A stretch of DNA of 64,000 nucleotides from Clostridia bacterium (GTDB lineage: Bacteria; Bacillota; Clostridia; UMGS1810), in assembly GCA_017397885.1 (NCBI GenBank), contig JAFQHQ010000220.1, positions 1-64,000 of the forward strand. Reading direction: 5' to 3'. The notes beneath the pieces are model-generated. The model had not been told where the DNA came from. It saw nothing but the letters and a program-made list of their open reading frames with translations, and did not search any database. Below, piece after piece: positions 5,169-60,190 of this stretch. The stretch's first letter is position 1, and every line of letters starts with the position of its first letter. The translations under genes were made by a program, and so were the position numbers.

Positions 5169-6473
5169 CTATTCTGAAAATTTCTTTATCAGTTCTTTAT
5201 AGTGATTGCCTTTTTCTTCAAAGTTTTTATACACGTTATAGCTTGCTGCCGCAGGTGAGAACAAACACGTTCTGCCCTTTTCCGTCACGGCAAACGCTGT
5301 CTTTACGGCATCCTCCATATCGGCTGCTTTGTAAAGATTTTTAGCTGTTTTTCCGCTCATCTCGTCACAAATCGAATGTCCTGTTTGCGGAAGTCCGATG
5401 AGATTGCGGACATTGGAATTTTCGAGGTCAACAACAAACTCGCTGTAGTCGAGTCCCCTGTCCATACCGCCGAAGATAAGCGTATCAACGTTTTTTAACG
5501 CTTCGACCGCATACATTACAACTTTCGGTGCGGTGGCTATACTGTCATTGACAAATTTTATTCCGTCAAAGACACCGACAGGCTCCATACGGTGATCGAT
5601 ACCGCCGAAATTCATAATGCCTTTCAGCACGGATTCTTCATCTATGCCGAGGCACCTCGCGACCGTAGCCGCAAAGAACGTATTCTGTGCATTGTGTCTG
5701 CCGACAAGTCTTTCGTTACACTCCGACAATCTTTTTAAAAACTCCGATCTGTCACTCTCGTCAAGTGCGATCGGGATTTTTTTTGCTTTTATATCCTTAT
5801 CAAAGAGATATTCCCGAAGTCCGTCAACATCGCCGTAAATGAGAAAATCCTCTTCACCCTGATGTGCGGTTATATTAAGCTTTGCGTTTGCGTAACCCTC
5901 GAAGCCGTTGTAATGATCAAGATGCTCTTCATAAAGATTCGTAAAAACTGCAATATGCGGTGATGTCTTCATAAACTCAAGCTGATGACACGACAGCTCG
6001 ATAACAGCAGTTTTGCCCTCACAGTCATCAAACACGTCAAGCACAGGCACGCCGATGTTGCCGATTAGACAAGAATCAACACCTGCCGCCTGTAAAACAT
6101 TATAAATCAATGTCGATGTAGTTGTTTTACCCTTTGTTCCCGTAATACCGATCTTGCGGCACGGTGCAAAGCGCATAAACAGCTCTGTCTGGCAGGTTAT
6201 CTCCGTGTTGTCGGGAATTGCGACATCGCAGAACGGTATGCCCGGTGATTTCATAACGAGGTCATAATCCTTCATTGCATCAAGATAATTCTCACCGAAA
6301 AACGACTTCACACCGTCAAATTTCGGATCGACTCTGTCGGCAACGGCAAGCTCGGCATCGGGAATGTGAGTTTTCAAAAAATTAAGAGTAGAACGACCCT
6401 CACGACCCATTCCGAGAATAAGGATCCTTTTGTTCTGCAAATACTCAATCAAAGCCTTTGACAAAGCGTACAT
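5169..6473 (-). CDS. murD: MurD-like Mur ligase
   Basis: A 434-residue ATP-dependent ligase of the Mur family, close to the usual MurD length. The N-terminal Rossmann domain starts with RILILGMGREGRSTL, which binds the UDP-MurNAc part. The ATP loop GITGTKGKTTTS lies at 109-120, and GRHNAQN (258-264) and GIDHRMEPV (291-299) mark the central and C-terminal domains. MurD adds glutamate to UDP-MurNAc-L-Ala in the cytoplasm. The signature that reads DSKATN in classical MurD is DSIATA here (310-315), so the conserved Lys is replaced by Ile. The gene sits outside any dcw cluster, last in a minus-strand run 16 bp after the FAD oxidoreductase. It may be the only MurD or a specialised paralog. Confidence 0.75.
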   Translation of the reverse strand: MYALSKALIEYLQNKRILILGMGREGRSTLNFLKTHIPDAELAVADRVDPKFDGVKSFFGENYLDAMKDYDLVMKSPGIPFCDVAIPDNTEITCQTELFMRFAPCRKIGITGTKGKTTTSTLIYNVLQAAGVDSCLIGNIGVPVLDVFDDCEGKTAVIELSCHQLEFMKTSPHIAVFTNLYEEHLDHYNGFEGYANAKLNITAHQGEEDFLIYGDVDGLREYLFDKDIKAKKIPIALDESDRSEFLKRLSECNERLVGRHNAQNTFFAATVARCLGIDEESVLKGIMNFGGIDHRMEPVGVFDGIKFVNDSIATAPKVVMYAVEALKNVDTLIFGGMDRGLDYSEFVVDLENSNVRNLIGLPQTGHSICDEMSGKTAKNLYKAADMEDAVKTAFAVTEKGRTCLFSPAAASYNVYKNFEEKGNHYKELIKKFSE

Positions 6474-6488
6474 CTCCCCGATTGTTTT

Positions 6489-7607
6489 TTAATCATAAAT
6501 GTGAAGCTTTACGCCTCTTCTGACAAGCTCCGATTGAAGCTTATGCACATCGAGTGACGTAAAATCATCACTCATCGAAGCCGCAACGCCTGCCGCTTCG
6601 CCCGTAACGGCACAGACAGGGATAACCCTTGTTATCTCCCACATTTCATCGGTAACGGAAATATTTCTGCCTGCCGTTATAAGGTTCTTTATCTTTGTAC
6701 CGTAAAGGCACGAAAACGGTATTTCAAATCTCGGACCTCTTTTGCGCCAGTCGCCTACAGCACCGATACTGTCTTTATAGTATTCCTCATTCTTATCCGA
6801 AAGAACCGTTTTGCCGCAAATTCTTCTCGTCCTTCTGTAGCACGGAACCATGGAGATCGAAGCGGCTTCTTCACCGTTCTTTTCACGCTCTGACAGCTCC
6901 GAAAGAAGCTCTTTGTGAGAGTCAATAACGTATTCCGAAACAGAACAAGGATTATCTATATAATATGTCTTGTCGCTCTCAGATGACCTGAACGGCAGAC
7001 CGATGCTGCGAAGCTTCATACCGTCCCTTTCCGAAACGGTATAAAACCACGATGATGTTGTATTACCCTCAGCAAAATGCTCTGTTCCCGCACCGCTTTG
7101 CACGCAAAGATCGGCGTCTCCCGTGGCATCGACAAAGCTTTTCGCTTCTATCGAAAGCTCTCCCGCTTTGGTCTGCAGAAAAGCTTTTGTTATTTTTCCG
7201 TCAAGCACCTCTACGTCGCTTACAAGTGCATCGTAAATCAGCGTAACACCCTCATTCAGAAGAAGCTTTTCCGCTTCGAGTGCAAACAACCACGGATTGT
7301 ACTGCACCTCGTAACGGATTTTTGCTTTTTCTTCTTTAGTCCCCGACTTTATCCACGGAGTCGGTTCTCTTGCCTGGATGTTATGCTTCATCGAAAGCTT
7401 CAGAAGCTCCTCGGCAATACCGAAGGACATCTGATTGCCGCAGCCGTCACAAAGAGGGAGATATATTGTCACAAGTCCCATCGTTGCAAGTCCGCCGAGA
7501 ACACAGTTCTTTTCACACAGAACCGTGCGAGCGCCGCTTCTTGCCGAAGCGAGCGCCGCCGCTATACCTGCGATACCTCCGCCTGCAACCAGAACATCAC
7601 ATTGCAT
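6489..7607 (-). CDS. FAD-dependent oxidoreductase
   Basis: A 372-residue flavoprotein of the FAD_oxidored type. The dinucleotide-binding motif VLVAGGGIAGIAAALASAR is at the extreme N-terminus, followed by a conserved acidic strand end (LCEK). Near the C-terminus GRNISVTDEMWEITRVIP and VCAVTGEAAGVAA contact FAD in this family. The ATG at 7607 is chosen because AAGGA lies 7 bp upstream; a GTG at 7631 is the only alternative and lacks a good site. It follows the propeller/six-hairpin gene by 44 bp and is probably in the same transcript, which suggests oxidation of a carbohydrate or related substrate. The substrate is not known. Confidence 0.8.
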   Translation of the reverse strand: MQCDVLVAGGGIAGIAAALASARSGARTVLCEKNCVLGGLATMGLVTIYLPLCDGCGNQMSFGIAEELLKLSMKHNIQAREPTPWIKSGTKEEKAKIRYEVQYNPWLFALEAEKLLLNEGVTLIYDALVSDVEVLDGKITKAFLQTKAGELSIEAKSFVDATGDADLCVQSGAGTEHFAEGNTTSSWFYTVSERDGMKLRSIGLPFRSSESDKTYYIDNPCSVSEYVIDSHKELLSELSEREKNGEEAASISMVPCYRRTRRICGKTVLSDKNEEYYKDSIGAVGDWRKRGPRFEIPFSCLYGTKIKNLITAGRNISVTDEMWEITRVIPVCAVTGEAAGVAASMSDDFTSLDVHKLQSELVRRGVKLHIYD

Positions 7608-7651
7608 CGTTCTGTCCTTAGAGTTCTTCACTGATCATCACATCCGACTGA

Positions 7652-9748
7652 TTATTCTTTTATGATGCCGTAATATCTTCCGTACCAATACGGAACAAGG
7701 AAAATTGTCGGCTCATGAGCCTTCATACCGTTTCCGTCATCCGCCAAAAACGGGTTGTGATCGTTGCCGTTCATAGGCTTTTCGTCATAAGGAAGCGGCT
7801 CGCAAAGCTGCCTTCCGCCGCCGAAACGTTCCTGACCCGAGCTCCACTTGAGTCCCTTGCGTCCGCTGTTTTTGACATTGTAATAAATAAGATCAAGAGG
7901 CAATTCACAAAGACTCTGAACCGCCTTGTCAACTTCACAGGAAATTCCTCCGGACATTGCGGCATAAACCATATTCCAGAAGGGATTACGCTCGATTTTT
8001 TCAATTCCCCAATGGTGCTTCATACCAAGAAGGAAATACTGGCGAAGTTGAGGATCCTCCTCATAGCGGAGAATGGTTGCGTAAGTCAGGAAGCCGAGGC
8101 TGTCGTCAATGTGATTTACATAACAGTCATCTACCTTGATCTGTATACAGTTGAGTGCATAGTGATGATCTTCGACAAGCTCACGGTAAAGCTTGTTGTA
8201 CTTTTCATCGCCGCTTGTGTGATAAACCGTCTTGAGTAAGGAAAGCAGCTCCATGGAGTTGATACCCTTTTCCCAGAACCAGATATCGTCGTGATTCAGC
8301 TCGTGCGGTCCCCAATGCGCCCACGTTGTGGGAAGTGAATCGTAATCGCAAAGCGTATAACCGTTTCTGATGATATGATCAACTATGCTGCAAAGAGCAT
8401 CGGAAACTTCTTTTTTCTCTTTTTCATCTGCACAAATGTCATAATAGAATGACAAACCGAAGAAATGACCGACAATCTCATCGCTGGAGGTTTCACCCTT
8501 CCATTCCAGTTCGCCCTTTTCATCCTTTACAAGATGCCATTCGGGATCACCGTTGCCAAAGCGATCCTCGCCGGGACGACGGTATGCTCTTGCGGGGAAG
8601 CCGGGAATCTCCGTAACGTAAATAAGCTTTATGAGAGCATCCTTTGCGCGTCTTGCACGAAGGAGTGCCTCCTCCTCTCCCGTTGCTCCGTAGTGAAGAG
8701 CTTCGGCAGCCAGATAGAATCCTGTCCAGAGTCCGTCATTGTCCGTAATCTCAGGATAACCCGAATCCATATTATCTTTTTCTGTAAGGATTCTCGGTGT
8801 AATATATCCCTCTCTCAGATGATATTTTTCTGCTGTCTCTTCAAAGTGTCTTGCCTTTTCGCGCAGAGTCATCTTCTTTGTTTCGATTTTGCTGATACCT
8901 TTCGGAGTACCTACATAGATAACACCGTCATCGGTTACATGGATAGCCGTAACCTCACCGTCGGGAAGCCAACGTTCGGCACCGAGGAAGCTCTCTTTCG
9001 TACCGCTCTGAATGATAAGTCCGCAATCTGTTCCGATATACCTTGTACCGTCCTTACCGATAACGATCTTTCTGATATCGCCCTCGGGAAGTGCTTCGAT
9101 CTTTTCATGTGTATACCAGTTGTTCTTTGCATCATACAGAACAACACCGTCCTCTGTCGCGATCCAGATGTGACCCCAGTCATCTGCCGCAAGATCCCTG
9201 ATCTCGCTTTCGGGCATACCGGAATTCTGTGAGTTGATGCCCGACCATCTCGGTCTTTTTCCGTGAAGTCCGTAGAGGAAATCGTAGTTTGCCAGATAAA
9301 CCTGACCGCTTGCAAATGCTGTCATTGCAAAAACGGGACCTTTACCCGATTCGCTGTATACTTCAAATACTCCGTTAACCAATTTATAGAACGTGTCTGC
9401 TGTCAGAAGCCATAAGGTACCGTCAGCATCGCTGTCAGCATCCATAACCGTGCTGTCGAGCTTCTGCTTGCCTGTGACCTTGCCTCCCTTGACCGTATAG
9501 ACGGTATCACCGGATCCGACATAAAGTATGCCGTTCATTTCAAAAAGCATTCTGACAGGGCAATCACTGTCAAGCTTTACGCTTTTGAACTCATCGCCCT
9601 TCTGATACAAAAGTCCGTTTTCACATCCGACATAGATTATGCCCTCTGCTTCGCTGATTGCAAGGATTTTTACATCCTTAAGACCCTGTTTTTCGCCGTA
9701 AAAAGTTCTTGTTCTCTGAGGAAATTCGCCTACATTAATTGAAATCAT
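7652..9748 (-). CDS. Two-domain protein: beta-propeller plus six-hairpin (alpha/alpha) domain
   Basis: A 698-residue protein without a signal peptide. Residues about 20-300 contain repeated blades of the two-component-regulator-propeller kind (for example LAADDWGHIWIATEDGVVL, IHVTDDGVIYVGTPKGIS). Residues about 305-698 are alpha-helical with aromatic-rich motifs (SGYPEITDNDGLWTGFYLAA, THWGPHELNHDDIWFW-like) as in six-hairpin glycosidase folds. Propellers of this type normally sit in membrane sensor kinases, but here there is no transmembrane helix or kinase domain. The gene precedes the FAD oxidoreductase and follows a small unknown gene by 4 bp. An intracellular carbohydrate-active role is inferred; no catalytic residues could be assigned. 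Confidence 0.6.
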   Translation of the reverse strand: MISINVGEFPQRTRTFYGEKQGLKDVKILAISEAEGIIYVGCENGLLYQKGDEFKSVKLDSDCPVRMLFEMNGILYVGSGDTVYTVKGGKVTGKQKLDSTVMDADSDADGTLWLLTADTFYKLVNGVFEVYSESGKGPVFAMTAFASGQVYLANYDFLYGLHGKRPRWSGINSQNSGMPESEIRDLAADDWGHIWIATEDGVVLYDAKNNWYTHEKIEALPEGDIRKIVIGKDGTRYIGTDCGLIIQSGTKESFLGAERWLPDGEVTAIHVTDDGVIYVGTPKGISKIETKKMTLREKARHFEETAEKYHLREGYITPRILTEKDNMDSGYPEITDNDGLWTGFYLAAEALHYGATGEEEALLRARRAKDALIKLIYVTEIPGFPARAYRRPGEDRFGNGDPEWHLVKDEKGELEWKGETSSDEIVGHFFGLSFYYDICADEKEKKEVSDALCSIVDHIIRNGYTLCDYDSLPTTWAHWGPHELNHDDIWFWEKGINSMELLSLLKTVYHTSGDEKYNKLYRELVEDHHYALNCIQIKVDDCYVNHIDDSLGFLTYATILRYEEDPQLRQYFLLGMKHHWGIEKIERNPFWNMVYAAMSGGISCEVDKAVQSLCELPLDLIYYNVKNSGRKGLKWSSGQERFGGGRQLCEPLPYDEKPMNGNDHNPFLADDGNGMKAHEPTIFLVPYWYGRYYGIIKE

Positions 9749-33924: not shown

Positions 33925-34983
33925 TTACTTAAACTCTACACCTTTTTTAATCACAGACACAATATTCATGTCATCATCCGTAACAATGAAATCGGCACTG
34001 TAGCCTTCGGCAATTTTGCCTCTGTTCTTAATTCCCATCATGTTATATGGCGTTTCGGAAGCCATCTTAAAAGCGTCATATTCGCAAATGCCGAATTCCA
34101 TTGCCTTTTTAACCATGTCAAAAAGGAATGTTGTTGAACCTGCAAGATTGCCTTCTTTGAGCCTTGCTTCTCCGTTTTTAACATATGTCATAAGACCGCC
34201 AAGCTCATATTCTCCGTCTGCAAGACCTGCCGGGCGAACAGAGTCACTTATGAGAATCATTCTGTCTGCGCCAAAAAGTTTATAAAGCATCAGCACACAT
34301 GCTTTGTGAATGTGAACACCGTCGCAAATGACCTGCGCATAAATTCCTTTTTCAGCCGCCGCACCAATGGGACCGGGGTTGCGGTGATGAATAGGGGGCA
34401 TGGCATTAAAGGTGTGGGTCAGGCATGCTGCACCGTTTTTGATTGCTTCAATGGCAGTGTCATAGTCGCAGTCGGTGTGACCGAGACAAACGGGAACTCC
34501 GCAGTTTTTAATAAATTCCATTGCACCGTCGATTTCGGGGGCGACAGTAATTGTGGCAACATTTTTAATTGCTGAAAATTCTTCGAGATTTGGCTTTTTA
34601 ATGTATTCGGGGTTTTGCGCACCCTTATATTTTTCATTAATATACGGACCTTCAAGATGATATCCTATAATTTCGCATCCGTCGGGCACTTCGGGCTTTG
34701 TGTCGGTTATTTTCTTTACCTGTTCAAGGTCAATTGTCATGGTTGTGGGGCACCAGCTCACAACACCGTGAGAAAGCATGATTTTGCTCATTTTTTCCAC
34801 GCTTCCCACGTCACAGGTGTCCATTCCCATCATACCGTGGGAGTGGATGTCAAAAAGACCGGGGTAAACTCTTAATCCGCTTGGGGTGCCGTCTTTATTT
34901 TCCTTAACCGAAACAATAACACCGTTTTCATAGCAAACATCGCAATTCACGCCATAGAGACGGACATTTTTTAATATATCCAT
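33925..34983 (-). CDS. nagA: N-acetylglucosamine-6-phosphate deacetylase
   Basis: A 352-residue TIM-barrel metal hydrolase. It removes the acetyl group of GlcNAc-6-P to give GlcN-6-P. Motifs in order are DIHSHGMMG (metal-loop histidines), HLEGPYINEKYKGAQN with the metal-binding Glu, LGHTDCDY, THTFNAMPPIHHRNPG and the catalytic Asp in ISDSVRPAG. It is slightly shorter than the common 380-390 residues because of a short N-terminal beta-sandwich. It is the last gene of an operon with a hexosamine-kinase-like and a nucleotidyltransferase gene, 12 bp after the kinase, pointing to catabolism of N-acetylhexosamines. Confidence 0.9.
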   Translation of the reverse strand: MDILKNVRLYGVNCDVCYENGVIVSVKENKDGTPSGLRVYPGLFDIHSHGMMGMDTCDVGSVEKMSKIMLSHGVVSWCPTTMTIDLEQVKKITDTKPEVPDGCEIIGYHLEGPYINEKYKGAQNPEYIKKPNLEEFSAIKNVATITVAPEIDGAMEFIKNCGVPVCLGHTDCDYDTAIEAIKNGAACLTHTFNAMPPIHHRNPGPIGAAAEKGIYAQVICDGVHIHKACVLMLYKLFGADRMILISDSVRPAGLADGEYELGGLMTYVKNGEARLKEGNLAGSTTFLFDMVKKAMEFGICEYDAFKMASETPYNMMGIKNRGKIAEGYSADFIVTDDDMNIVSVIKKGVEFK

Positions 34984-34995
34984 TTTATACTCTCC

Positions 34996-36078
34996 TTATT
35001 TTGCGTATTTTGCAACAATTTTTTTCATTTCGTCAAACTTTGCGGTAATATCCTGACAAAGTTTAAGTTGATTCTTTGCTCTCACAAGATTCTGGTCGGG
35101 ATAGTGGATTCTGAAATATGTATCACCGTTCAAATAGTCTGTGAGAAAACGTATACCGCATTCATATGTGAGAGTGAGCGCACTGAGGGGCAAAAGTTCA
35201 ACCTCTCTTTTTGTGATTTTGTCGCCAAGCTCCGAAAGGAAGCCTTTGGTGTAGCTTTCAAAATAATCAAGATCAAACCACACTTTTTCCAAATCTGCCT
35301 CATCTTCAACAGCGGTGGAAGCACCAAAACGAAGTGAATCGCCGTAGTCAAAAAGAAGTGATCCGGGCATAACAGTGTCAAGATCAATAACACAAAGACC
35401 TTTGCCTGTGTCTTTGTCAAACAAAACATTGTTAAGCTTTGTGTCGTTGTGGGTAACCCTTGTTGGGATGGCGCCGCTTTGAAGATCCTTGGTAATGATG
35501 TGACAGTCACTTTCAAATACTGCATAGCCTTCAAAAACATCTGTTACTTCGTCTTTTCTTCCTGCAATATTCTCATTCATTGCGTTTTTAAGATTTTCGG
35601 TTCTCTTGATTGTGTTATGAAAATCCGGAATTGTTTCATAAAGAGTAGATGCATCAAACTCTGCGAGCTGATTCTGAAAATGCCCGAAAGCCTTTGCGGA
35701 AGATTCAAACTGTTCGGGGTTTTCGGGGAGATTGAGAGAAATTGTGTTTTCAATAAATTTATACACTCTGTAGCATCCGCCGTCTGAAGCCTCATAGAAA
35801 AGCCTACCGTCTTTTGTTTTTATAACAGTGAGGGTTTCTCTGTCGGGATCGCCGCCGTTTTTGGTTATGATATCTCTGAGATAAGTGGTAACCGCATCAA
35901 TATTTTCCATGAGTTTTTGAGGATTTGTGAATATTGATGTGTTAATCTTTTGAAGAATATATTTTGGTGATGAGTCTGCAAAATACGTCTCATTAATATG
36001 ACCGTCACCGTAGGGTGAAATGTTGATATTAATGTCGAATGCATCCATAATTTCATTGAGAGTTTTATTATATGCCAT
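34996..36078 (-). CDS. N-acetylhexosamine 1-kinase-like phosphotransferase
   Basis: A 360-residue kinase of the aminoglycoside/choline phosphotransferase fold, close in length to NahK (LnpB) of bifidobacteria. It shows YILQKINTSIFTNPQKLMEN at the nucleotide region, the catalytic loop THNDTKLNNVLF and the metal-binding DLDTVMPGSLLFDYGD. NahK phosphorylates C1 of GlcNAc/GalNAc to feed a uridylyltransferase. Its neighbours are a sugar nucleotidyltransferase (upstream, overlapping) and nagA (downstream), which fits that role. AAGGA serves either ATG 36078 or ATG 36081; the former has better spacing. Substrate preference is inferred from resemblance and context. Confidence 0.75.
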   Translation of the reverse strand: MAYNKTLNEIMDAFDININISPYGDGHINETYFADSSPKYILQKINTSIFTNPQKLMENIDAVTTYLRDIITKNGGDPDRETLTVIKTKDGRLFYEASDGGCYRVYKFIENTISLNLPENPEQFESSAKAFGHFQNQLAEFDASTLYETIPDFHNTIKRTENLKNAMNENIAGRKDEVTDVFEGYAVFESDCHIITKDLQSGAIPTRVTHNDTKLNNVLFDKDTGKGLCVIDLDTVMPGSLLFDYGDSLRFGASTAVEDEADLEKVWFDLDYFESYTKGFLSELGDKITKREVELLPLSALTLTYECGIRFLTDYLNGDTYFRIHYPDQNLVRAKNQLKLCQDITAKFDEMKKIVAKYAK

Positions 36079-36913
36079 CATAGTGTCCTTCTTTCATGAG
36101 ATTTTGAAGTGCCGACTGCACAGCGGGGGTGTCGTCTTTGTAGGTCACGCCATACCATTTGTCGTTCGATATGTATGCATCAACCTTTGTTCCGTTGTTT
36201 TTGATGAGCTCATCAACAACAAAGGGGAGGAAGAATTCATCCTTACAAGGATTTGTCATGTTTTTCAAAAATTCAGCAAATCTTGTTTCAAGTTCTGCAA
36301 AAATATCTGTCTTAAATCCCCACATATTCATTGATACCGGTGTATCCATGGGGATGGGTGAATTTTTGTCAAGGGCAGTGTGTTCAACAACCGATTTTAA
36401 AAGTCCGTCTTTAATATCACACACTCCGCGGCTGACAGTGCCGTTTTCGGTCAGAGTATTTCCCAAACGAAATGCCGCAAGGCAAATTTCAGAACCGCTT
36501 GTAAGAGCGTCGTGAACAAGCTTGAATGCACTTTTGCCGTAATAGTCATCGGCATTTATTGCGGCAAAAGGTGTTGTAACCGCATTTTTTGCGCAAAGTA
36601 TTGCATGACCTGTTCCCCATGGCTTTGCTCGGTCAGCAGGAACCGAAAAACCTTCGGGGAGCATGGTGTCTGTGTGCTGAAAAACATATTCTGTGTCAAT
36701 CATTTTTTCAATACGTTTTCCGGCAACCTCTCTGAAATCATGTTCGATTTCTTTTTTTATTATAAAAACTGCTTTGTTAAAACCTGCTTTTACAGCATCA
36801 TAAACCGAAAAATCAAGAATGATTTCTCCGTTTGTACCCATTGGTGCAATCTGTTTTAATCCGCCAAATCTTGACCCCATTCCGGCAGCCATAACTACGA
36901 GTGTAGTATCCAT
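36068..36913 (-). CDS. Sugar-1-phosphate nucleotidyltransferase
   Basis: A 281-residue NTP-transferase. The nucleotide-binding signature VMAAGMGSRFGGLKQIAPMG opens the protein, GTGHAILCAK and INADDYYGKSAF match the activated-sugar site, and NMWGF lies in the second half. Such enzymes join a sugar-1-phosphate to UTP, dTTP or GTP. It overlaps the NahK-like kinase gene by 11 bp, so the two probably act in sequence: hexosamine to hexosamine-1-P to UDP-hexosamine. There is no GlmU-type hexapeptide acetyltransferase domain. AGGAGATG precedes the ATG and a promoter is at 36969-36997. Confidence 0.82.
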   Translation of the reverse strand: MDTTLVVMAAGMGSRFGGLKQIAPMGTNGEIILDFSVYDAVKAGFNKAVFIIKKEIEHDFREVAGKRIEKMIDTEYVFQHTDTMLPEGFSVPADRAKPWGTGHAILCAKNAVTTPFAAINADDYYGKSAFKLVHDALTSGSEICLAAFRLGNTLTENGTVSRGVCDIKDGLLKSVVEHTALDKNSPIPMDTPVSMNMWGFKTDIFAELETRFAEFLKNMTNPCKDEFFLPFVVDELIKNNGTKVDAYISNDKWYGVTYKDDTPAVQSALQNLMKEGHYDGI

Positions 36914-37986: not shown

Positions 37987-39453
37987 ATGATTAACATAGG
38001 TTCAAGAAGAGAATGTTTTTTCGATACATTCATTGTTGATAAAGACAAAACAAGTGCAAATATTTTGCTTCACAAACCCGAAATAAAAAATATAACCATG
38101 ACTTGTGATGAGCCATGGGAAGGAGACTGCAGTGATTTCTTCAACTTTTTCTTCGATGATGAAGCAGGAATCTACCGTATGTACTATCTTGGCTGGGCAT
38201 ACCAAAGAGAAAATCCCGAAGAGATGGCAATCAGGGTTTGCTATGCCGAAAGCAAAGATGGCATAACATACACCAAACCAAATCTTGGGATTTGCGAATT
38301 CAGAGGTTCAAAAGAGAATAACATCATTTTCGACGAAAAGACAATGCAGTTTGATAACTTCTATGTTTTTAAAGACAAAAATCCTGAATGCAAAAGCGGT
38401 CAGAAATACAAGGCAATTGCTCTTGATCTTTCACAAAATGCTCTTGTTGCATTTTACAGTGATGATGGAATTCATTTTGAAAAAGGGAATATTCTCACCG
38501 ATAAAGGTGCATTTGACACTTTAAATGTTGCATTCTGGGATGAGGATGCAAAAATGTACCGATGCTACATAAGAGGCTTTCACGTTCCCGGTGACCTTGA
38601 ATATAAAGACCCCGAGGACGAAAGACCGCTCTATCTTTCTCCTTCCGACCGTAATGTGAGGGTGCGTGACATAAGATATATGGAGTCCGAAGATTTCGAA
38701 AGTTGGACAAGACCCGTACATATTGATTTTGGAGACAAGCCGGATGTTCCGCTCTACACCAATGTGGTTTCAAAATATTACAGAGCACCTCACATCTTTG
38801 TCGGCTTCCCCACAAGATATATGGAAAGAGAACAATGGACACCTTGCTATGACGTTCTTTGCGGACTTGAAGGAAGAAAGAAACGCTTTGAAAAGGGCAG
38901 ACGCCAAGGACTTACCGTCACCGACTGTGTGTTTATGACATCACGTGACGGTGTTAAATTTACCCGCTATGACGAATCATTCATCCGCCCGGGTGCAGAA
39001 CACGAAACCAACTGGGTTTACGGAAGCTGTTATCCGTCGGTTGGTTTTGTTGAAACTCCGTCTCACATCAATCCCGACTGCGATAATGAGCTTTCAATGT
39101 TTAGCTATGAAAATCATATGTCGGGGAAACCTGCCGCACTCAGACGCTACACACTCCGTCTCGACGGTTTCGCCTCCATGCACGCAGGCGAAAATGAAGA
39201 AATTCTTACCACAAAGCCCTTTGTTTTTGAAGGCTCAAAGCTTTTTGCCAACATTTCAACCTCTGCATGGGGATATATGTATTTTGAACTCACCTGTGGC
39301 GGAAAAACCGTTAAAAGCTGCGAAATGTTTGGAGACTCGGTTAACAAACAAATATGTTTTGAAGATGATATTTCTCAGTTTGCAGGTAAGGAAACCATTC
39401 TTAAAATCCGCATGAGAGATGCAGATATATATAGTTTTAAGTTTGAGAATTGA
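37987..39453 (+). CDS. Five-bladed-propeller glycosidase-like protein
   Basis: A 488-residue protein without signal peptide. Repeated blade motifs such as FFDDEAGIYRMYYLG, VCYAESKDGITYTKP, LVAFYSDDGIHFEKG and DCVFMTSRDGVKFTRYDE are typical of the five-bladed propeller of GH32/GH43/GH68-type and related phosphorylase families. The C-terminal 80 residues form a beta-sandwich. I cannot assign it to a numbered family or name the catalytic acids. It has a promoter and a GGAGG site, and it precedes the GH78-RpiB gene by about 100 bp, so a role in breakdown of the same oligosaccharide inside the cell is likely. Confidence 0.65.
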   Translation: MINIGSRRECFFDTFIVDKDKTSANILLHKPEIKNITMTCDEPWEGDCSDFFNFFFDDEAGIYRMYYLGWAYQRENPEEMAIRVCYAESKDGITYTKPNLGICEFRGSKENNIIFDEKTMQFDNFYVFKDKNPECKSGQKYKAIALDLSQNALVAFYSDDGIHFEKGNILTDKGAFDTLNVAFWDEDAKMYRCYIRGFHVPGDLEYKDPEDERPLYLSPSDRNVRVRDIRYMESEDFESWTRPVHIDFGDKPDVPLYTNVVSKYYRAPHIFVGFPTRYMEREQWTPCYDVLCGLEGRKKRFEKGRRQGLTVTDCVFMTSRDGVKFTRYDESFIRPGAEHETNWVYGSCYPSVGFVETPSHINPDCDNELSMFSYENHMSGKPAALRRYTLRLDGFASMHAGENEEILTTKPFVFEGSKLFANISTSAWGYMYFELTCGGKTVKSCEMFGDSVNKQICFEDDISQFAGKETILKIRMRDADIYSFKFEN

Positions 39454-39550: not shown

Positions 39551-42325
39551 ATGCCATTTGATTACGGTGTTTTCATAAAGCCGGACATAGAGTTCAATAG
39601 GGAGTTTTCTTTTGAAAATTATGCACCTATGTTTCGCAAAAAGTTTGCTCTCGACTCTTTTTCCGATGCCAAGCTTCGCATATGCGGTCTTGGAATTGCA
39701 TATTGTTGGATAAACGGCAAAAAAATTACCGAAGACCTTTTCACAGCTCCCGTGAGCGATTACGGCAAAACCCTCTGGTACAATGAATATGATGTCACTT
39801 CGCTTCTTTGTGAAGGTGAAAACACAATTGCAGTTATCTGCGGTAACGGTTGGTACAATGAAACAATCCGTACCGGATGGAACTTTGACCGAGCACCGTG
39901 GAGGGATTTGCCCAAATTTATTGCACGACTTGAAACCGACGGCAAAACAACTCTTGTCACCGATTCAAGCTGGAAATGTAAGCCCGACAGTGCTATTGTT
40001 TTCAACCAGATACGAAGCGGTGAATATTTTGATGCAAATCTTTGGGATGAAACTTGGGTTAATCCGGATTTTGACGATTCATCTTGGGAAAATACCGTAA
40101 GAGATGTTATTCCGCCAACGGGCACATTCAGACTTTGCGAATGTGAACCCATAAGAGAGCACGAAATATATTCTCCTGTCAACTCGTGGCAGGTAGGGGA
40201 GAAAAAATTCGTTTTTGACTTCGGTCACAATGTTTCGGGATACATTCGTCTTACCGCAAAAGGCAAAAAGGGCGATGTGATTACGGTTCGTTACTGCGAA
40301 AACGTGTCGGATTCAGGTCAGCTTGAATACTACGGAATGGACGAATATTGCACCAAGCTCGGCAAGCATCTTTTTGCCACTGACAAATTCATATGCTCCG
40401 GAAAAGAATTTACTCATTCCCCGATTTTTGCATACCACGGATTCAGATATGTTGAATTAGACGGCATAGAAAGTGCTGATGAAGTCGATGTAGAACAAGT
40501 TTTCGTACATCAGGCGGTTGAGCGCAGAACAAGCTTCAAATGCTCTGACGACTTTTTGAACAAAATCTTTGAATTTGGAATTGGCTCATCATGGTCAAAT
40601 ATGTTCTATGCATTAACAGACTGCCCCACAAGAGAAAAACTTGGCTGGTGCAACGATGCTCAAAGCTCAGCAGAACAGCTTATAACCAATTTTAAAATAG
40701 AAAAACTTTATGAAAAATGGCACCGCGACATAAAGGATGCCATGCTCTCCGATGGTTCACTCCCCGGAATTGTTCCGACCTCGGGATGGGGTTATCACTG
40801 GGGCAACGGACCTGTGTCGGACGGAATTCTCTTTGAGCTCCCCTACAGAGTGTATCTTCATACGGGAGATTCGTCTCTTCTTGTGTCATCACTTGGCTAC
40901 TTTGACAAATATTTCGGCAATCTTGACAGAAACAAAAACAGTGAAGGCTTTGTAAGCTTCGGTCTCGACGACTGGGCGGCACCGGGTAACATCCACATTG
41001 TAGAGCCAGAATTTATCAACGCAGTTCTGGAATATAACTTTGCAAACATCGCCCTCCTTGCCTCGGAATGTGCAAATAACGGAGATGGCGAAAAATATAA
41101 GACCAGAGCCAAGACGCTTGAAAAGCTCATAAAAGAAAAATACATTGCCCCCGACGGCAGATGCACCATAAACGAACAATGCTCTGTTGCAATGCTTGTG
41201 TACTACGGACTTTATGACGACATTGAACCCCTTGCAAAACAGCTTGCAGAGACCGTTGAAAGCACCGACTACCACATTAAATGCGGCATGGTTGGAATAA
41301 GAAGACTTCTTCACGCCCTTTCCATGGTGGATAAAAGCGAGCTTGCCTATAAGCTCCTTACACAAAGCGGTTATCCCGGATACAAACACTGGTATGACCT
41401 TGGTGCTGTCAGCCTTTGGGAAAAATGGGATGCGAATGTGAACTCCGATTCGAAAAATCACCATATGTATTCGGACTATATGTCATGGCTAATTAAAACT
41501 TTGGCAGGAATCAAAATTAATGAAAACAAATGCGGTGAGATTGAATTTTTGCTTGAACCTCATTTCATTCCGCAGATTGATTGGGTTGATTTTGATTATG
41601 ACACCGTTTGCGGAAAAATCGGTGTTAACTGGAAACGTGAAAACGGAATAATAACCCTTAATGTATATCATGACAGCGATGTAAAGCTCATTTACAATGG
41701 TGAGCTTCTTAAGGAAAAAGAAAACAAATTTATAATACAAGGAATGAAGAAAATGAAAACGGTAAAAGACAAACAAATTTTGGTTGGAGCAGACTTTGCG
41801 GGCTATCCTCTTAAGGAAGCAGTTGTTGCTCACCTCAAGGCTAAAGGCTGGACAGTTACCGATGTTGGCGTTAAAGCAGATTCCGACCCCGATGACACAG
41901 ACCTCATGTTTCATCGTGTAGGCCTCAGAGCAGGTTCTCTCATTTCCGAAGGCGAATTTGAAAGAGCACTTCTCTTCTGTGGCACAGGTATGGGTATCCA
42001 CATTGCCGCTTCAAAATGCCCCCACGTTCATGCAGGTGTTGTTGAAAGCGTTCCTGCAGCTCTTCGTGCAATCACAGGTAACGGTGTAAACGTTCTTGCA
42101 ATGGGTGCGTTTTATGTTGCTCCCGCAATGGGCTGTGACATTGCTGATGCATATCTTAATGCAGAGCTTGGCTCGGGATATGAATGGTGGAAAAATTTTT
42201 ACGAATTCCACAAGCTTGCCATTGATGAGCTTGAAGCCTTTGACTATGAAGAATACAAGGCAAACGGCTTTAAGGTAAATAAGCTTGGTGATTTCCCCCT
42301 TAAGCTTGAAACAAAACCCGAATAA
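39551..42325 (+). CDS. GH78 alpha-L-rhamnosidase-like protein fused to an RpiB/LacAB isomerase
   Basis: A 924-residue protein in two parts. Residues 1 to about 728 are a GH78-type enzyme: N-terminal beta-sandwich, then an (alpha/alpha)6 barrel with TDCPTREKLGWCNDAQSSAE and FGLDDWAAPGN, and a C-terminal beta-domain. Such enzymes release terminal L-rhamnose from glycans. There is no signal peptide, so it works in the cytoplasm. Residues about 735-924 are an RpiB/LacA/LacB-type sugar-phosphate isomerase (ILVGADFAGYPLKEAVVAHL, FCGTGMGIHIAASK). The frame is open throughout, but AAGGA at 41739-41743 sits 9 bp before an internal ATG at 41753, so the isomerase may also be made alone. The last 141 bp are duplicated at 43938-44078. 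Confidence 0.85.
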   Translation: MPFDYGVFIKPDIEFNREFSFENYAPMFRKKFALDSFSDAKLRICGLGIAYCWINGKKITEDLFTAPVSDYGKTLWYNEYDVTSLLCEGENTIAVICGNGWYNETIRTGWNFDRAPWRDLPKFIARLETDGKTTLVTDSSWKCKPDSAIVFNQIRSGEYFDANLWDETWVNPDFDDSSWENTVRDVIPPTGTFRLCECEPIREHEIYSPVNSWQVGEKKFVFDFGHNVSGYIRLTAKGKKGDVITVRYCENVSDSGQLEYYGMDEYCTKLGKHLFATDKFICSGKEFTHSPIFAYHGFRYVELDGIESADEVDVEQVFVHQAVERRTSFKCSDDFLNKIFEFGIGSSWSNMFYALTDCPTREKLGWCNDAQSSAEQLITNFKIEKLYEKWHRDIKDAMLSDGSLPGIVPTSGWGYHWGNGPVSDGILFELPYRVYLHTGDSSLLVSSLGYFDKYFGNLDRNKNSEGFVSFGLDDWAAPGNIHIVEPEFINAVLEYNFANIALLASECANNGDGEKYKTRAKTLEKLIKEKYIAPDGRCTINEQCSVAMLVYYGLYDDIEPLAKQLAETVESTDYHIKCGMVGIRRLLHALSMVDKSELAYKLLTQSGYPGYKHWYDLGAVSLWEKWDANVNSDSKNHHMYSDYMSWLIKTLAGIKINENKCGEIEFLLEPHFIPQIDWVDFDYDTVCGKIGVNWKRENGIITLNVYHDSDVKLIYNGELLKEKENKFIIQGMKKMKTVKDKQILVGADFAGYPLKEAVVAHLKAKGWTVTDVGVKADSDPDDTDLMFHRVGLRAGSLISEGEFERALLFCGTGMGIHIAASKCPHVHAGVVESVPAALRAITGNGVNVLAMGAFYVAPAMGCDIADAYLNAELGSGYEWWKNFYEFHKLAIDELEAFDYEEYKANGFKVNKLGDFPLKLETKPE
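41753..42325 (+). CDS. Possible separately translated RpiB/LacAB-type isomerase
   Basis: The same frame as the GH78 fusion, read from an internal ATG with AAGGA upstream and a TATAAT-like sequence at 41731-41736. The product would be 190 residues, a little longer than the usual 150-residue RpiB, with a C-terminal extension ending KLGDFPLKLETKPE. RpiB-family enzymes interconvert aldose and ketose phosphates; similar longer proteins accompany sugar catabolism genes. Internal initiation is inference; the sequence shows only that the signals are there. Confidence 0.45.
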   Translation: MKTVKDKQILVGADFAGYPLKEAVVAHLKAKGWTVTDVGVKADSDPDDTDLMFHRVGLRAGSLISEGEFERALLFCGTGMGIHIAASKCPHVHAGVVESVPAALRAITGNGVNVLAMGAFYVAPAMGCDIADAYLNAELGSGYEWWKNFYEFHKLAIDELEAFDYEEYKANGFKVNKLGDFPLKLETKPE

Positions 42326-42472: not shown

Positions 42473-42501
42473 GTATATAACCTGAAATGGAGGTCGTATA
42501 T

Positions 42502-43908
42502 ATGTTTATAGGCAGAGAACGTGAACTTGATGCTCTTAATAAACTTTATAAATCAAATAAATTTGAATTTGCGGTTATCTATGGCAGACGCCGTGTTGGT
42601 AAAACTGCCCTCATAAATGAGTTTATCGGCGATAAAAAAGCCATTTACTTTATGGGGGTTGAAAGTAACGCAAAGCAGAATCTCGAAAACTTCTCAAAAA
42701 GCATTATGGAGTTTGCAAGCGGTATTGAAACGGAGTCCTCTTTCCTTTCATTCCAGGCTGCACTTGAGTATGTATTCAAGCTTGCAGAAAACGAAAGAAT
42801 TATTCTCGCTATCGACGAATATCCATACGTGGCTCGTTCGTCAAAAAGCCTTGCATCTACTTTTCAGCTTTTGATTGATAAATATAAAGATACATCAAAT
42901 TTGATGCTTATTCTCTGCGGTTCTTCTATGTCATATATGGAAGACCATGTACTTGCATATAAAGCACCTTTATATGGGCGTAGAACGGCTCAAATAAAGC
43001 TTTTGCCGTTTGACTTTGAAGAAACCTGCAGATATTTTAAAAATCTGTCTGATGAGGATAAAGCACTTATATATGGTGTCGCAGGCGGTACGCCACAGTA
43101 CCTTTTGCAAATGGACGATAAGTTAAGTGTTGAGGATAATATCAAAAACACATACTTAAATCCGATTTCGTTCCTTTATGAAGAACCGACTAACCTTTTG
43201 AAACAAGAAGTGCGTGAGCCTGCCATTTACACGGCTATTATTACTGCGATTGCAACGGGGTCTTCAAGAATGTCGGAGATTTCAAGCAAGGTTGGCGAAG
43301 ATACCAATGTTTGCACGAACTACATCAAGAACCTTATGAATCTTGGAATCGTGCAAAAAGAAACACCATACGGTGAAAAAGCTTCTCGTAAGTCGGTTTA
43401 CTCTATCGAGGATAATATGTTCCGTTTCTGGTATCGTTTTGTGCTTGATAATAACTCAATCATCGCCCGTGGCGCTGCAGATTTGGTTTATAAAAGAATT
43501 GAACCTCAGCTTTCAGACTATATGGGTAAGGTGTTTGAAGAAATCTGTAAACAGTACCTTTGGAAACAGCTCCTTTCTGGTAACTGCCCGGTAGAGTTTA
43601 ACTCACTTGGTCGTTGGTGGGGCAGTGATTCGAAAGAAAAATGTCAGACTGAAATTGATATTATGGGCGAACAAGATAAAAACACAGCGCTTTTTGCGGA
43701 ATGCAAATGGACAAACGAAAAGGTTGACCTTAGCGTTTTAGAAACACTTATAAAACGCAGTAATTTGTTCTCATATAAAACAAAGCATTACTACCTCTTC
43801 TCTAAATCGGGCTTTACAAAAGGTTGTATTGATAAGGCTAATGAGATGGGGAATGTGAGTTTGGTTGAGTTTGAGGATATTATGGAGGAAGTACAACAAA
43901 ATGGCTGA
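42502..43908 (+). CDS. ATPase_2/DUF234 protein (AAA-like ATPase with nuclease-like C-terminus)
   Basis: A 468-residue protein. Residues 1 to about 230 are an archaeal-type ATPase (ATPase_2) with Walker A GRRRVGKT and Walker B ILAIDEYPYV. A winged-helix region follows (about 240-310, SEISSKVGEDTNVCTNYI). The C-terminal DUF234 part (about 340-468) contains TEIDIMG and LFAECKW, which fit the acidic residue and ExK of PD-(D/E)xK nucleases. The ATG at 42502 is preferred over 42487 because GGAGG lies between them. The family is widespread but without a settled function; links to defence or toxin-like systems have been suggested. It overlaps a truncated ORF, and the whole unit interrupts a pair of rpiB repeats. 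Confidence 0.85.
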   Translation: MFIGRERELDALNKLYKSNKFEFAVIYGRRRVGKTALINEFIGDKKAIYFMGVESNAKQNLENFSKSIMEFASGIETESSFLSFQAALEYVFKLAENERIILAIDEYPYVARSSKSLASTFQLLIDKYKDTSNLMLILCGSSMSYMEDHVLAYKAPLYGRRTAQIKLLPFDFEETCRYFKNLSDEDKALIYGVAGGTPQYLLQMDDKLSVEDNIKNTYLNPISFLYEEPTNLLKQEVREPAIYTAIITAIATGSSRMSEISSKVGEDTNVCTNYIKNLMNLGIVQKETPYGEKASRKSVYSIEDNMFRFWYRFVLDNNSIIARGAADLVYKRIEPQLSDYMGKVFEEICKQYLWKQLLSGNCPVEFNSLGRWWGSDSKEKCQTEIDIMGEQDKNTALFAECKWTNEKVDLSVLETLIKRSNLFSYKTKHYYLFSKSGFTKGCIDKANEMGNVSLVEFEDIMEEVQQNG

Positions 43909-43954
43909 CATAAAATTATTTAATATAAAAGGTAAGATGGAAAAATTTCTATGA
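43901..43954 (+). pseudogene. Truncated ORF overlapping the ATPase gene
   Basis: An ATG inside the last codons of the ATPase gene (ATGGCTGA overlap), preceded by GGAGGAA, opens a frame beginning MADIKLFNIKGK. After about 12 codons it runs into the rpiB-derived repeat and stops after MEKFL. The N-terminus resembles, from memory, a family of small nuclease-like proteins (DUF5655 or related) that begin MADIKLF; this is not verified. I read it as the cut-off 5' end of a former second gene of the ATPase operon. Confidence 0.6.
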
Positions 43955-44078
43955 ATTCCACAAGCTTGCCATCGATGAGCTTGAGGCCGTTGATTATGAA
44001 GAATACAAGGCAAACGGCTTTAAAGTAAACAAGCTTGGCGATTTCCCCCTTAAGCTTGAAACAAAACCCGAATAATTA
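43938..44078 (+). pseudogene. Remnant of a second RpiB/LacAB gene (direct repeat copy 2)
   Basis: 141 bp that match 42188-42328. Translated in the frame of the isomerase, it gives KNFYEFHKLAIDELEA and onward to LETKPE plus stop, with one amino-acid change (Phe to Val). The other differences are synonymous. The rest of the gene is missing. This pattern points to a diverged, once functional paralog and not to a fresh duplication. Confidence 0.8.
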
Positions 44079-44119: not shown

Positions 44120-44986
44120 TTATTCATCCTTTTTCCGGATTGTTCCCGGATTTTCACCAAAATATTTTGTGAATGCACTATAGAATCCACGGGTGGAATC
44201 ATATCCCACATATTCGGAAATTTCTTCAATGGTCATATCCGAATTTTCAAGAAGATTCCGTGCAAGAGTCATTCTTTTTTGCATAAGAAGCTCACTCCAG
44301 GTGCAGTTGAAATGTGTTTTTATAATTCGGTTCACCTGTTTGGTGCTGAGTGACAACATTTTTGCAATGTCATCAACACTTATTTCGTTGTCGCAGTATG
44401 CATTGGCAAGAGTGTTGATGCGGTGAAGTCTGCCCATAAGAGAATCAGATACAGTCTGGTTGTATTTTTCGTTTGTTTCAACGGATTTGTTGCTCATAAT
44501 CAGATCTACAAGGTATTTATGAAACGAAAGACTCACGTTATATTTGTTTTTTTCAGTATATGCATCAAAAATTTGCTTTATGGATTGATGAAGCTTGTCT
44601 TTTTTTTGAAAACGGTATCCGGCAGAGGGAATTATTCCGCAAATTCTTTTGTAAAGGTTGTTGCCGTCAGTTAATACGTTTTTTGAAAAAGTAAATCCGA
44701 TGCAAAACACCTTGGTTTCTGAGTTCTGAAATCGTATTATGTGATTTACATTTGGCGCAACCGTCAGCGAGTCTCCCGCCTCCATAACAAAACTGTCATC
44801 TTCAACCTTTGCCTCAAGGCTTCCTCTTTCAACAAAAATCAAAACATGAAACGAATGAGAATAAGGCATAACATATCTGCCTGTCAGCACGACATCGTTT
44901 GCAAAAAGTGAAAATTTACAATTGTCAATGTTGAAAACAAAAACTTCCTGAGGACTTTTCTTTATTTTTTCAAAATAATTATCCAA
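44120..44986 (-). CDS. AraC-family regulator next to the SGNH hydrolase
   Basis: A 288-residue regulator with an N-terminal cupin (MPYSHSFHVLIFVERGSLEA, MEAGDSLTVAPNVNHIIRF) and a C-terminal double helix-turn-helix (SVDDIAKMLSLSTKQVNRII; TIEEISEYVGYDSTRGFYSAF). It is 29 bp downstream of the SGNH hydrolase gene and in the same direction. It may control the large exported lyase cluster that starts 0.9 kb away on the other strand. The effector is unknown. Confidence 0.87.
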   Translation of the reverse strand: MDNYFEKIKKSPQEVFVFNIDNCKFSLFANDVVLTGRYVMPYSHSFHVLIFVERGSLEAKVEDDSFVMEAGDSLTVAPNVNHIIRFQNSETKVFCIGFTFSKNVLTDGNNLYKRICGIIPSAGYRFQKKDKLHQSIKQIFDAYTEKNKYNVSLSFHKYLVDLIMSNKSVETNEKYNQTVSDSLMGRLHRINTLANAYCDNEISVDDIAKMLSLSTKQVNRIIKTHFNCTWSELLMQKRMTLARNLLENSDMTIEEISEYVGYDSTRGFYSAFTKYFGENPGTIRKKDE

Positions 44987-45015: not shown

Positions 45016-45744
45016 TTAGTTGTTAAACACGGATTCTGCAAGAGAAATTGCAAATAGCGAATGCATTTCTCTGTCGGGATGGTTTATATTGTTTGAAAGC
45101 AAATTATCAATGTCAACTCCCGATTCGTAAAGTTTTTCCCATTTACTGTAACAATCACAAAAAACCACTTCTGCATCTGTTGCGGCTTTTTCCATTATTT
45201 TTACAAAATTTTTCAGTGTACCGCTGTTTTGCATTTCTCTTACACTGTGAGCTATTTTCAGAAATCCTTCATCTTTTATTTCAGGGCTTATTTTTGTGCA
45301 GTTCATTGCTGTTGACATAAAAATGACTTCAATATTATTATCCTTCAGCCTTTTTGCAATATCCATAAGCGAATTGTAAAAATCTTCGCCTCTTGATCCA
45401 CCGTCACGGTGAGCATCATTTGCAGCGAAAGATACCACACAAAGGTCGGGGTTATGTACGATTACATCTTTTTCAAGACGCTCTGATGCTTCCCAGCTTG
45501 TTGTACCGCTGATTCCTGCGTTGATTATGCTTATCGGTGCATCAGGATAGAGTTTGTCAAAAATCTTTTTGAATTTTGCATGGTAGACATTTTCATAATC
45601 ATTTACGGTTTTAAGATTCCCTGAAGCATCTCTTCCTATTTCAAAACACCCCTGTGTAATGCTGTCACCAAGAAAGGCAACGGTAACACCGGGTGCGTTT
45701 TTTGGATTTTGCTGTTTTTCTCTGAGTTTATTTATAATGTTCAT
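45016..45744 (-). CDS. SGNH/GDSL hydrolase
   Basis: A 242-residue esterase-like protein without signal peptide. Block I is FLGDSITQG with the nucleophile S28, block II is the Gly in NAGISGTTS, block III is the Asn in SFAANDAH, and the catalytic Asp/His pair is in PDREMHSLFA. Such enzymes often remove acetyl groups from sugars. Beside polysaccharide lyase and glycosidase genes, a carbohydrate esterase acting on imported oligosaccharides is a reasonable inference. It forms a unit with the AraC gene. Confidence 0.82.
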   Translation of the reverse strand: MNIINKLREKQQNPKNAPGVTVAFLGDSITQGCFEIGRDASGNLKTVNDYENVYHAKFKKIFDKLYPDAPISIINAGISGTTSWEASERLEKDVIVHNPDLCVVSFAANDAHRDGGSRGEDFYNSLMDIAKRLKDNNIEVIFMSTAMNCTKISPEIKDEGFLKIAHSVREMQNSGTLKNFVKIMEKAATDAEVVFCDCYSKWEKLYESGVDIDNLLSNNINHPDREMHSLFAISLAESVFNN

Positions 45745-59364: not shown

Positions 59365-59392
59365 TAAAATTTTATGAAAGGTGTTTGCTGTA

Positions 59393-60190
59393 ATGAAATA
59401 TATGTTTAAATCTTATTATCTTGATTCACCACTGGTAAAGGGGAGAATTTTCGACGTTTTTGAACCTGATGAAATTACAAAAGATGTTGCGATTTTCTGG
59501 GTACATGGCGGCGGATGGAGAGGAGGAAGCCGTGAGTTTCACACAATAATGGAAGCTCTCAGTAACCGCGGCTATATTGTTGCATCAACCGACTACCGTC
59601 TTGATGCAAAAGATGCCTTTGAACAGCTTAAAGACATCAGAGAATCATATGACCGCTTTGTCAGTATTTTAAAAGAAATGCAAAGACCGCTTCGCATTGC
59701 AGTTTACGGAGTCTCGGCAGGTGCACACCTTGCTTCACTTCTGCTTTGTGCAAATCCCGGCGAATGCGGCGAAGAACTTTCACTTCAAAATCAATGGGTT
59801 AAACCCGAAATGGGAATTCTGCAGGCAACTCCATATGATTTTCTCCCCTGGGATAACATGATGCCCTCAATGTGGAGCATAATGCAGTCAATAGCCGGAG
59901 CACCCTATGACAAAGAACCCGAAAGATATGAAAGACTTTCTCTCAAAAACTATATCAGAGAGGATAATCCGCCCATATTTTTCATGGAAGCAGAGCTTGA
60001 AAATGCATTTTTGCCCGAGCATACTTTGAAAATAGCAAAAAAACATCGTGAGTATGGTATAAACACACAGTGGAAAATGTATTCAAAGGTTGAACACGGA
60101 TTTTTTTCACAGCTTACCCGTCCGGCTCAGCTTGAAGCGTTTGAGGATTTTTGTGATTATGTTGATGGTTTATTAAACACCCAGTTTTGA
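59393..60190 (+). CDS. Alpha/beta hydrolase (esterase)
   Basis: A 265-residue hydrolase without signal peptide. The oxyanion motif HGGGWRGGSREF, the nucleophile elbow GVSAGAH and the histidine in KVEHGFFSQ give a complete esterase set of the BD-FAE/acetyl-esterase type. Such enzymes often remove acetyl or feruloyl groups from plant oligosaccharides. The ATG at 59393 has AAAGG 12 bp upstream; the GTG at 59381 is inside that site. No promoter of its own was seen behind the terminator, so it may depend on read-through. Confidence 0.82.
   Translation: MKYMFKSYYLDSPLVKGRIFDVFEPDEITKDVAIFWVHGGGWRGGSREFHTIMEALSNRGYIVASTDYRLDAKDAFEQLKDIRESYDRFVSILKEMQRPLRIAVYGVSAGAHLASLLLCANPGECGEELSLQNQWVKPEMGILQATPYDFLPWDNMMPSMWSIMQSIAGAPYDKEPERYERLSLKNYIREDNPPIFFMEAELENAFLPEHTLKIAKKHREYGINTQWKMYSKVEHGFFSQLTRPAQLEAFEDFCDYVDGLLNTQF

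Follow-up and report, generated by a model that had tools for sequence, protein, structure and literature searches.

The window, by which we mean the whole 64,000-nucleotide stretch of a Clostridia bacterium genome analyzed here, raises the question of whether a single reading frame that joins a glycosidase to an isomerase encodes a genuine bifunctional enzyme, records a recent mutation or results from an assembly error. Its forward-strand positions 39551–42325 comprise 924 codons in one frame, running from ATG to TAA, with Pfam matches to four rhamnosidase domains and to LacAB_rpiB, every one above its gathering cut-off. This bears out the original prediction of a GH78 and RpiB/LacAB combination in frame, and the AAGGA and two ATG codons that it placed at the junction are likewise there, both ATGs being in frame. 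A single frame spanning two complete conserved domains is far beyond chance. The features are listed below, with reference to L009, the closest locus found.

39551–42325, + strand: fused ORF, GH78 plus RpiB-like, 924 aa (ORF list; Pfam domains)
39551–41743, + strand: GH78 (alpha-L-rhamnosidase-like) part (Pfam, motif alignment)
Residues 38–205 of the fused ORF: Bac_rhamnosid_N (Pfam)
Residues 215–320 of the fused ORF: Bac_rhamnosid (Pfam)
Residues 326–650 of the fused ORF: Bac_rhamnosid6H (Pfam)
Residues 665–705 of the fused ORF: Bac_rhamnosid_C (Pfam)
Residues 743–874 of the fused ORF: LacAB_rpiB (Pfam)
41739–41743, + strand: Shine–Dalgarno-like AAGGA ahead of the isomerase (AAGGAGA in L009); site of the putative 2-bp (GA) deletion
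41744–41746, + strand: first internal ATG, in frame; its L009 counterpart overlaps the GH78 stop as ATGA
41753–41755, + strand: second internal ATG, in frame; equivalent to the conserved start (MK..K.K) of the RpiB-like family members
41753–42325, + strand: RpiB-like isomerase coding region, 190 aa if the start is the ATG at 41753 (Pfam, family alignment)

The GH78 part has the (alpha/alpha)6-barrel catalytic domain and the flanking domains of its family (PF17389 with E 6e-61; PF08531, PF05592 and PF17390 above cut-off), sharing all four Pfam rhamnosidase domains with the alpha-L-rhamnosidases of PDB entries 6i60, 3w5m and 6gsz (E-values 1e-89 to 1e-61). The Glu residues of the GH78 DER.GW and WERWD motifs are catalytic, and both are kept in the window protein: its REKLGW (ORF residues 361–366) and LWEKWD (622–627) align opposite DERLGW and MWERWD, and more broadly with the DERMGW/DERLGW and LWERWE/MWERWD motifs of those structures. 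In contrast to known members, it falls below the NCBIfam rhamnosidase equivalog cut-offs and continues in frame into an RpiB-like domain. We predict from these features that this part is alpha-L-rhamnosidase-like. As read from the sequence, it is devoid of an obvious signal peptide, so a cytoplasmic fusion is possible.

Comparison with relatives indicates how the two genes are usually arranged. GH78 lies directly upstream of the isomerase as a gene of its own at L009, L010, L011, L014, L041 and L055; the gap measures 18 nt at L010 (whose GH78 is 65% identical to the window copy), 34 nt at L011, 1 nt at L014 and 58 nt at L041, while at L055 the genes overlap by ATGA just as at L009. At L018 the gene order is reversed, with separate genes 11 nt apart. 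No other fused copy was found among 79 related loci, where no upstream open frame of the other isomerases exceeds 117 codons, or among 391 genomes of the class, where strong RpiB matches (40, in 37 genomes) were recovered and the RpiB frames measure 137–262 codons versus 936 in the window. Scans at the levels of genus, family and order, the latter two covering an identical 16 genomes, did not find the same fusion, and a search of the literature for rhamnosidase together with RpiB returned no relevant paper. Since two genes are present at every adjacent locus of the relatives, the separate state is ancestral and that of the window derived; on the sequences compared, the fusion is private to the window. 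A conserved bifunctional enzyme is ruled out, as none of the relatives compared has the same fusion. The original prediction had named separate genes in all close homologs as evidence that would refute it, and every relative is indeed split; this tells against a conserved bifunctional enzyme, whereas a private fusion is unaffected. Nor is the pairing unusual, given that GH78 and isomerase genes adjoin directly in several lineages.

The junction itself points to how the frame arose. L009 (from the goat caecum MAG RGIG1656; same coordinates as G003:C80) has a GH78 gene about 95% (95.5%) identical to that of the window and an isomerase that is 100% identical, in different frames. Its GH78 ends in GGA GAA TGA (protein ..KFIIQGE*), with the TGA sharing bases with an ATG, and the two genes thereby overlap by ATGA at AAGGAGAATGAAGAAAATG (junction ATAATACAAGGAGAATGAAGAAAATG). 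The window junction reads ATAATACAAGGAATGAAGAAAATGAAAACG, a 30-mer, and the counterpart of the L009 junction, AAGGAATGAAGAAAATG, is shorter by two bases (GA) around 41741–41743; the two-gene form is AAGGAGAATGA / AAGGAGAATGAAG and the fused form AAGGAATGAAG. The missing GA unit sits within a GAGA micro-repeat. With it missing, the GH78 frame enters that of the isomerase, passes its now out-of-frame TGA and continues into rpiB; the two-gene version in L009 makes plain that it is the 2-bp difference at 41741–41743 to which the window owes its single frame. In a simulation on the L009 sequence, covering all single substitutions (n = 180) and small indels across the last 60 nt of GH78, none of the 180 substitutions yielded a fusion, and loss of the stop by substitution was accordingly rejected. 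Fusions were produced by 2-bp deletions at 40/60 positions and by 1-bp duplications at 38/60, i.e., −2 or +1 shifts join the L009 genes across about 40 nt at the GH78 end. Hence, the earlier suggestion that stop-codon loss joined two genes appears right as to a recent joining, but its mechanism needs revision: a 2-bp deletion would bypass the overlapping TGA with no substitution of it.

We consider it fairly probable that the window records a recent, roughly neutral fusion of two operon genes by loss of GA rather than a selected bifunctional enzyme. In the ancestor, the GH78 alpha-L-rhamnosidase and the RpiB-like isomerase would have been encoded by two neighboring genes, probably coupled in translation, that served the use of rhamnosides in the cytoplasm. 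Of 14 gene pairs with ATGA-type overlaps tested by others, 13 showed strict coupling (PMC6728339), and the presumed ancestral arrangement, present in L009 and L055, resembles such pairs, whereas in the window the overlap has been turned into an in-frame fusion. In the L009-type arrangement the isomerase is probably produced by coupled reinitiation at ATGA together with its own Shine–Dalgarno site. Loss of one GA unit at this stop/start overlap would then have fused the genes in the window lineage; without the stop, ribosomes translating GH78 should read on in frame to give a fusion of about 924 aa with a linker of few residues, while others could begin at the ATG at 41753 (or 41744), from a weaker Shine–Dalgarno site, to give a free isomerase of about 190 aa. 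The predicted anti-Shine–Dalgarno pairing is −5.4 kcal/mol in the window versus −8.5 in L009, so the separate isomerase may be reduced. At the 79 related loci the conserved RpiB starts all correspond to the ATG at 41753, nearly all with a purine-rich Shine–Dalgarno-like sequence before them, and separate synthesis of the isomerase therefore probably persists. The proposal of independent isomerase translation accordingly keeps its plausibility with respect to initiation, given the conserved ATG and the retained AAGGA, but at a weakened pairing. That both products are made, that both are active and that the deletion is real is what we infer from the sequence.

The main competing account is an assembly or consensus error, whereby the absence of GA would be an artefact and the organism would still have two genes overlapping by ATGA. 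We regard this as possible though doubtful. The fusion comes from one assembly only, of a fragmented genome (77% complete, 221 contigs), all relatives are split, and the GAGA micro-repeat at the site also speaks for it. Against it, within-gene indels in the stretches syntenic with the L009 contig either have lengths divisible by three or are for the most part compensated, the clear uncompensated ones being that of the junction and one 2-bp indel at 60168, near the end of the gene 59381–60190; such scarcity of frame-breaking differences suggests a low error rate and makes the base-level quality of the contig look good. Further, the indel lies at a gene junction, the least harmful place, as would fit a genuine mutation that was tolerated. 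By our judgement, and not by any measurement, the odds of a real mutation against an error are roughly two to one. The cautious options of the original prediction, a recent mutation or an assembly error, thus come close to the mark.

A selected enzyme, in which the fusion channels or co-localizes the released sugar and its isomerization, would fit with both domains being intact, with genes that adjoin in several lineages as expected of functional partners, and with a GH78 whose apparent lack of a signal peptide lets both parts be cytoplasmic. We deem it very improbable, however, as the 79 loci and 391 genomes contain no second fused copy, the frameshift leaves a linker of just a few residues, and isomerase synthesis may drop. 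It is scarcely credible that two separate proteins are still made with little fusion accumulating, whether because internal initiation is strong, ribosomes drop off or the linker is cleaved: the AAGGA and both ATGs are kept, but no stop codon is left, whereby elongating ribosomes should read through, and the Shine–Dalgarno site is weakened.

Turning from the fusion by GA loss to its isomerase partner, the RpiB-like gene recurs in gut Clostridia next to genes for GDSL esterases and rhamnosidases, with relatives in L009–L087. Among the genes scanned beside it (n = 115), the most frequent were GDSL esterases (25) and GH78 (12), with GH106 (3) and RhaA (1) also present; this recurrence ties the isomerase to rhamnoside use. 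The window neighborhood includes:

37987–39453, + strand: 488-aa gene upstream of GH78, with no Pfam match
44120–44986, − strand: AraC-family regulator
45016–45744, − strand: GDSL/SGNH esterase, of the family recurrent beside the RpiB-like gene

The 488-aa protein resembles a beta-1,2-mannobiose phosphorylase model only marginally, at E 8e-4 and well short of the cut-off. L009 has an extra tandem relative of this gene (72% DNA identity) between it and GH78, which is missing in the window. A second locus of the same genome (L002, G000:C62:1-3472) encodes each protein by a gene of its own: an isomerase copy truncated where the contig ends (93%), a second GH78 (50%) and a GDSL-like esterase. On the minus strand, 33925–36913 is a probable N-acetylhexosamine cluster with a NagA-type deacetylase above cut-off, an APH-family kinase and a nucleotidyltransferase.

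The isomerase belongs to the LacAB_rpiB superfamily (92.1 bits versus a gathering cut-off of 24.7; E 4e-26) but misses all NCBIfam RpiB/LacA/LacB cut-offs (TIGR00689, 70.8 versus 88.3; PRK05571, 91.1 versus 135; others far below). The other 39 aligned sequences are 83–100% identical to the 190-aa window copy. Like the RpiB/LacAB isomerases of PDB entries 3he8, 2vvr and 4lfk, it retains the Cys-Gly-Thr-Gly loop, and alignment with 3he8 indicates that the Asp, catalytic Cys, Thr and Asn are kept; C76, invariant in the 40 sequences, lies opposite this Cys, whose role in RpiB/LacAB is documented (PMC3755991, PMC4783025). It differs from them in an extra C-terminal tail of about 50 aa and in F15 and the invariant G109, which stand opposite the two active-site His of 3he8, the usual histidines being absent. 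By eye, GSGYEWWKNF occurs where RpiB has phosphate-binding RHxxR-type residues. Activity is lost in LacB H9A and LdRpiB H102N, while LdRpiB H11N has altered kinetics only (PMC3755991, PMC4783025). As the usual His are missing from the subfamily, it is doubtful that its members isomerize sugar phosphates in the usual way, and the substrate may be something other than a sugar phosphate; the earlier assignment to the sugar's phosphate, in a subfamily without the residues used by sugar-phosphate members, is thereby called into question. A precedent within the superfamily for a non-phosphorylated substrate comes from DhuI (PDB 4u8e), an RpiB-family enzyme that isomerizes an unsaturated uronate carrying no phosphate (PMC12838403). 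Identity of the window isomerase with DhuI was rejected, since its match to the DhuI profile lacks significance (E 0.38). For the isomerase, AlphaFold gave a model with a mean pLDDT of 61, too poor for a fold search. It is very improbable that an uncharacterized subfamily acting on an unphosphorylated sugar in rhamnoside/GDSL-esterase loci goes together with a window fusion that is a working bifunctional rhamnosidase–isomerase.

Repeats also occur at the 3' end of the isomerase gene. Its last 45 codons (42188–42325) are repeated 1.6 kb downstream at 43938–44075 (129/138 bases identical), with an ATPase_2/DUF234 gene (42487–43908) between both copies, and L009 has the same arrangement (7638–7779 and 9393–9534); this looks like insertion or recombination at the isomerase 3' end. 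At L030, a 255-bp repeat (5407–5660 and 7095–7349; 96%) of the isomerase 3' end and downstream sequence surrounds the gene for a 399-aa protein. Given this different cargo, such repeats would have arisen at least twice.

In conclusion, the fusion would represent a snapshot of a tightly packed operon pair turning into one gene: where the pair overlaps by ATGA, a short indel that shifts the frame close to the junction can join them, whereas single substitutions do not. Annotators should be cautious, as no bifunctional enzyme is to be inferred from this single record. The more useful lead is the strongly conserved RpiB-like subfamily with its changed active site, whose substrate is open to experimental test.
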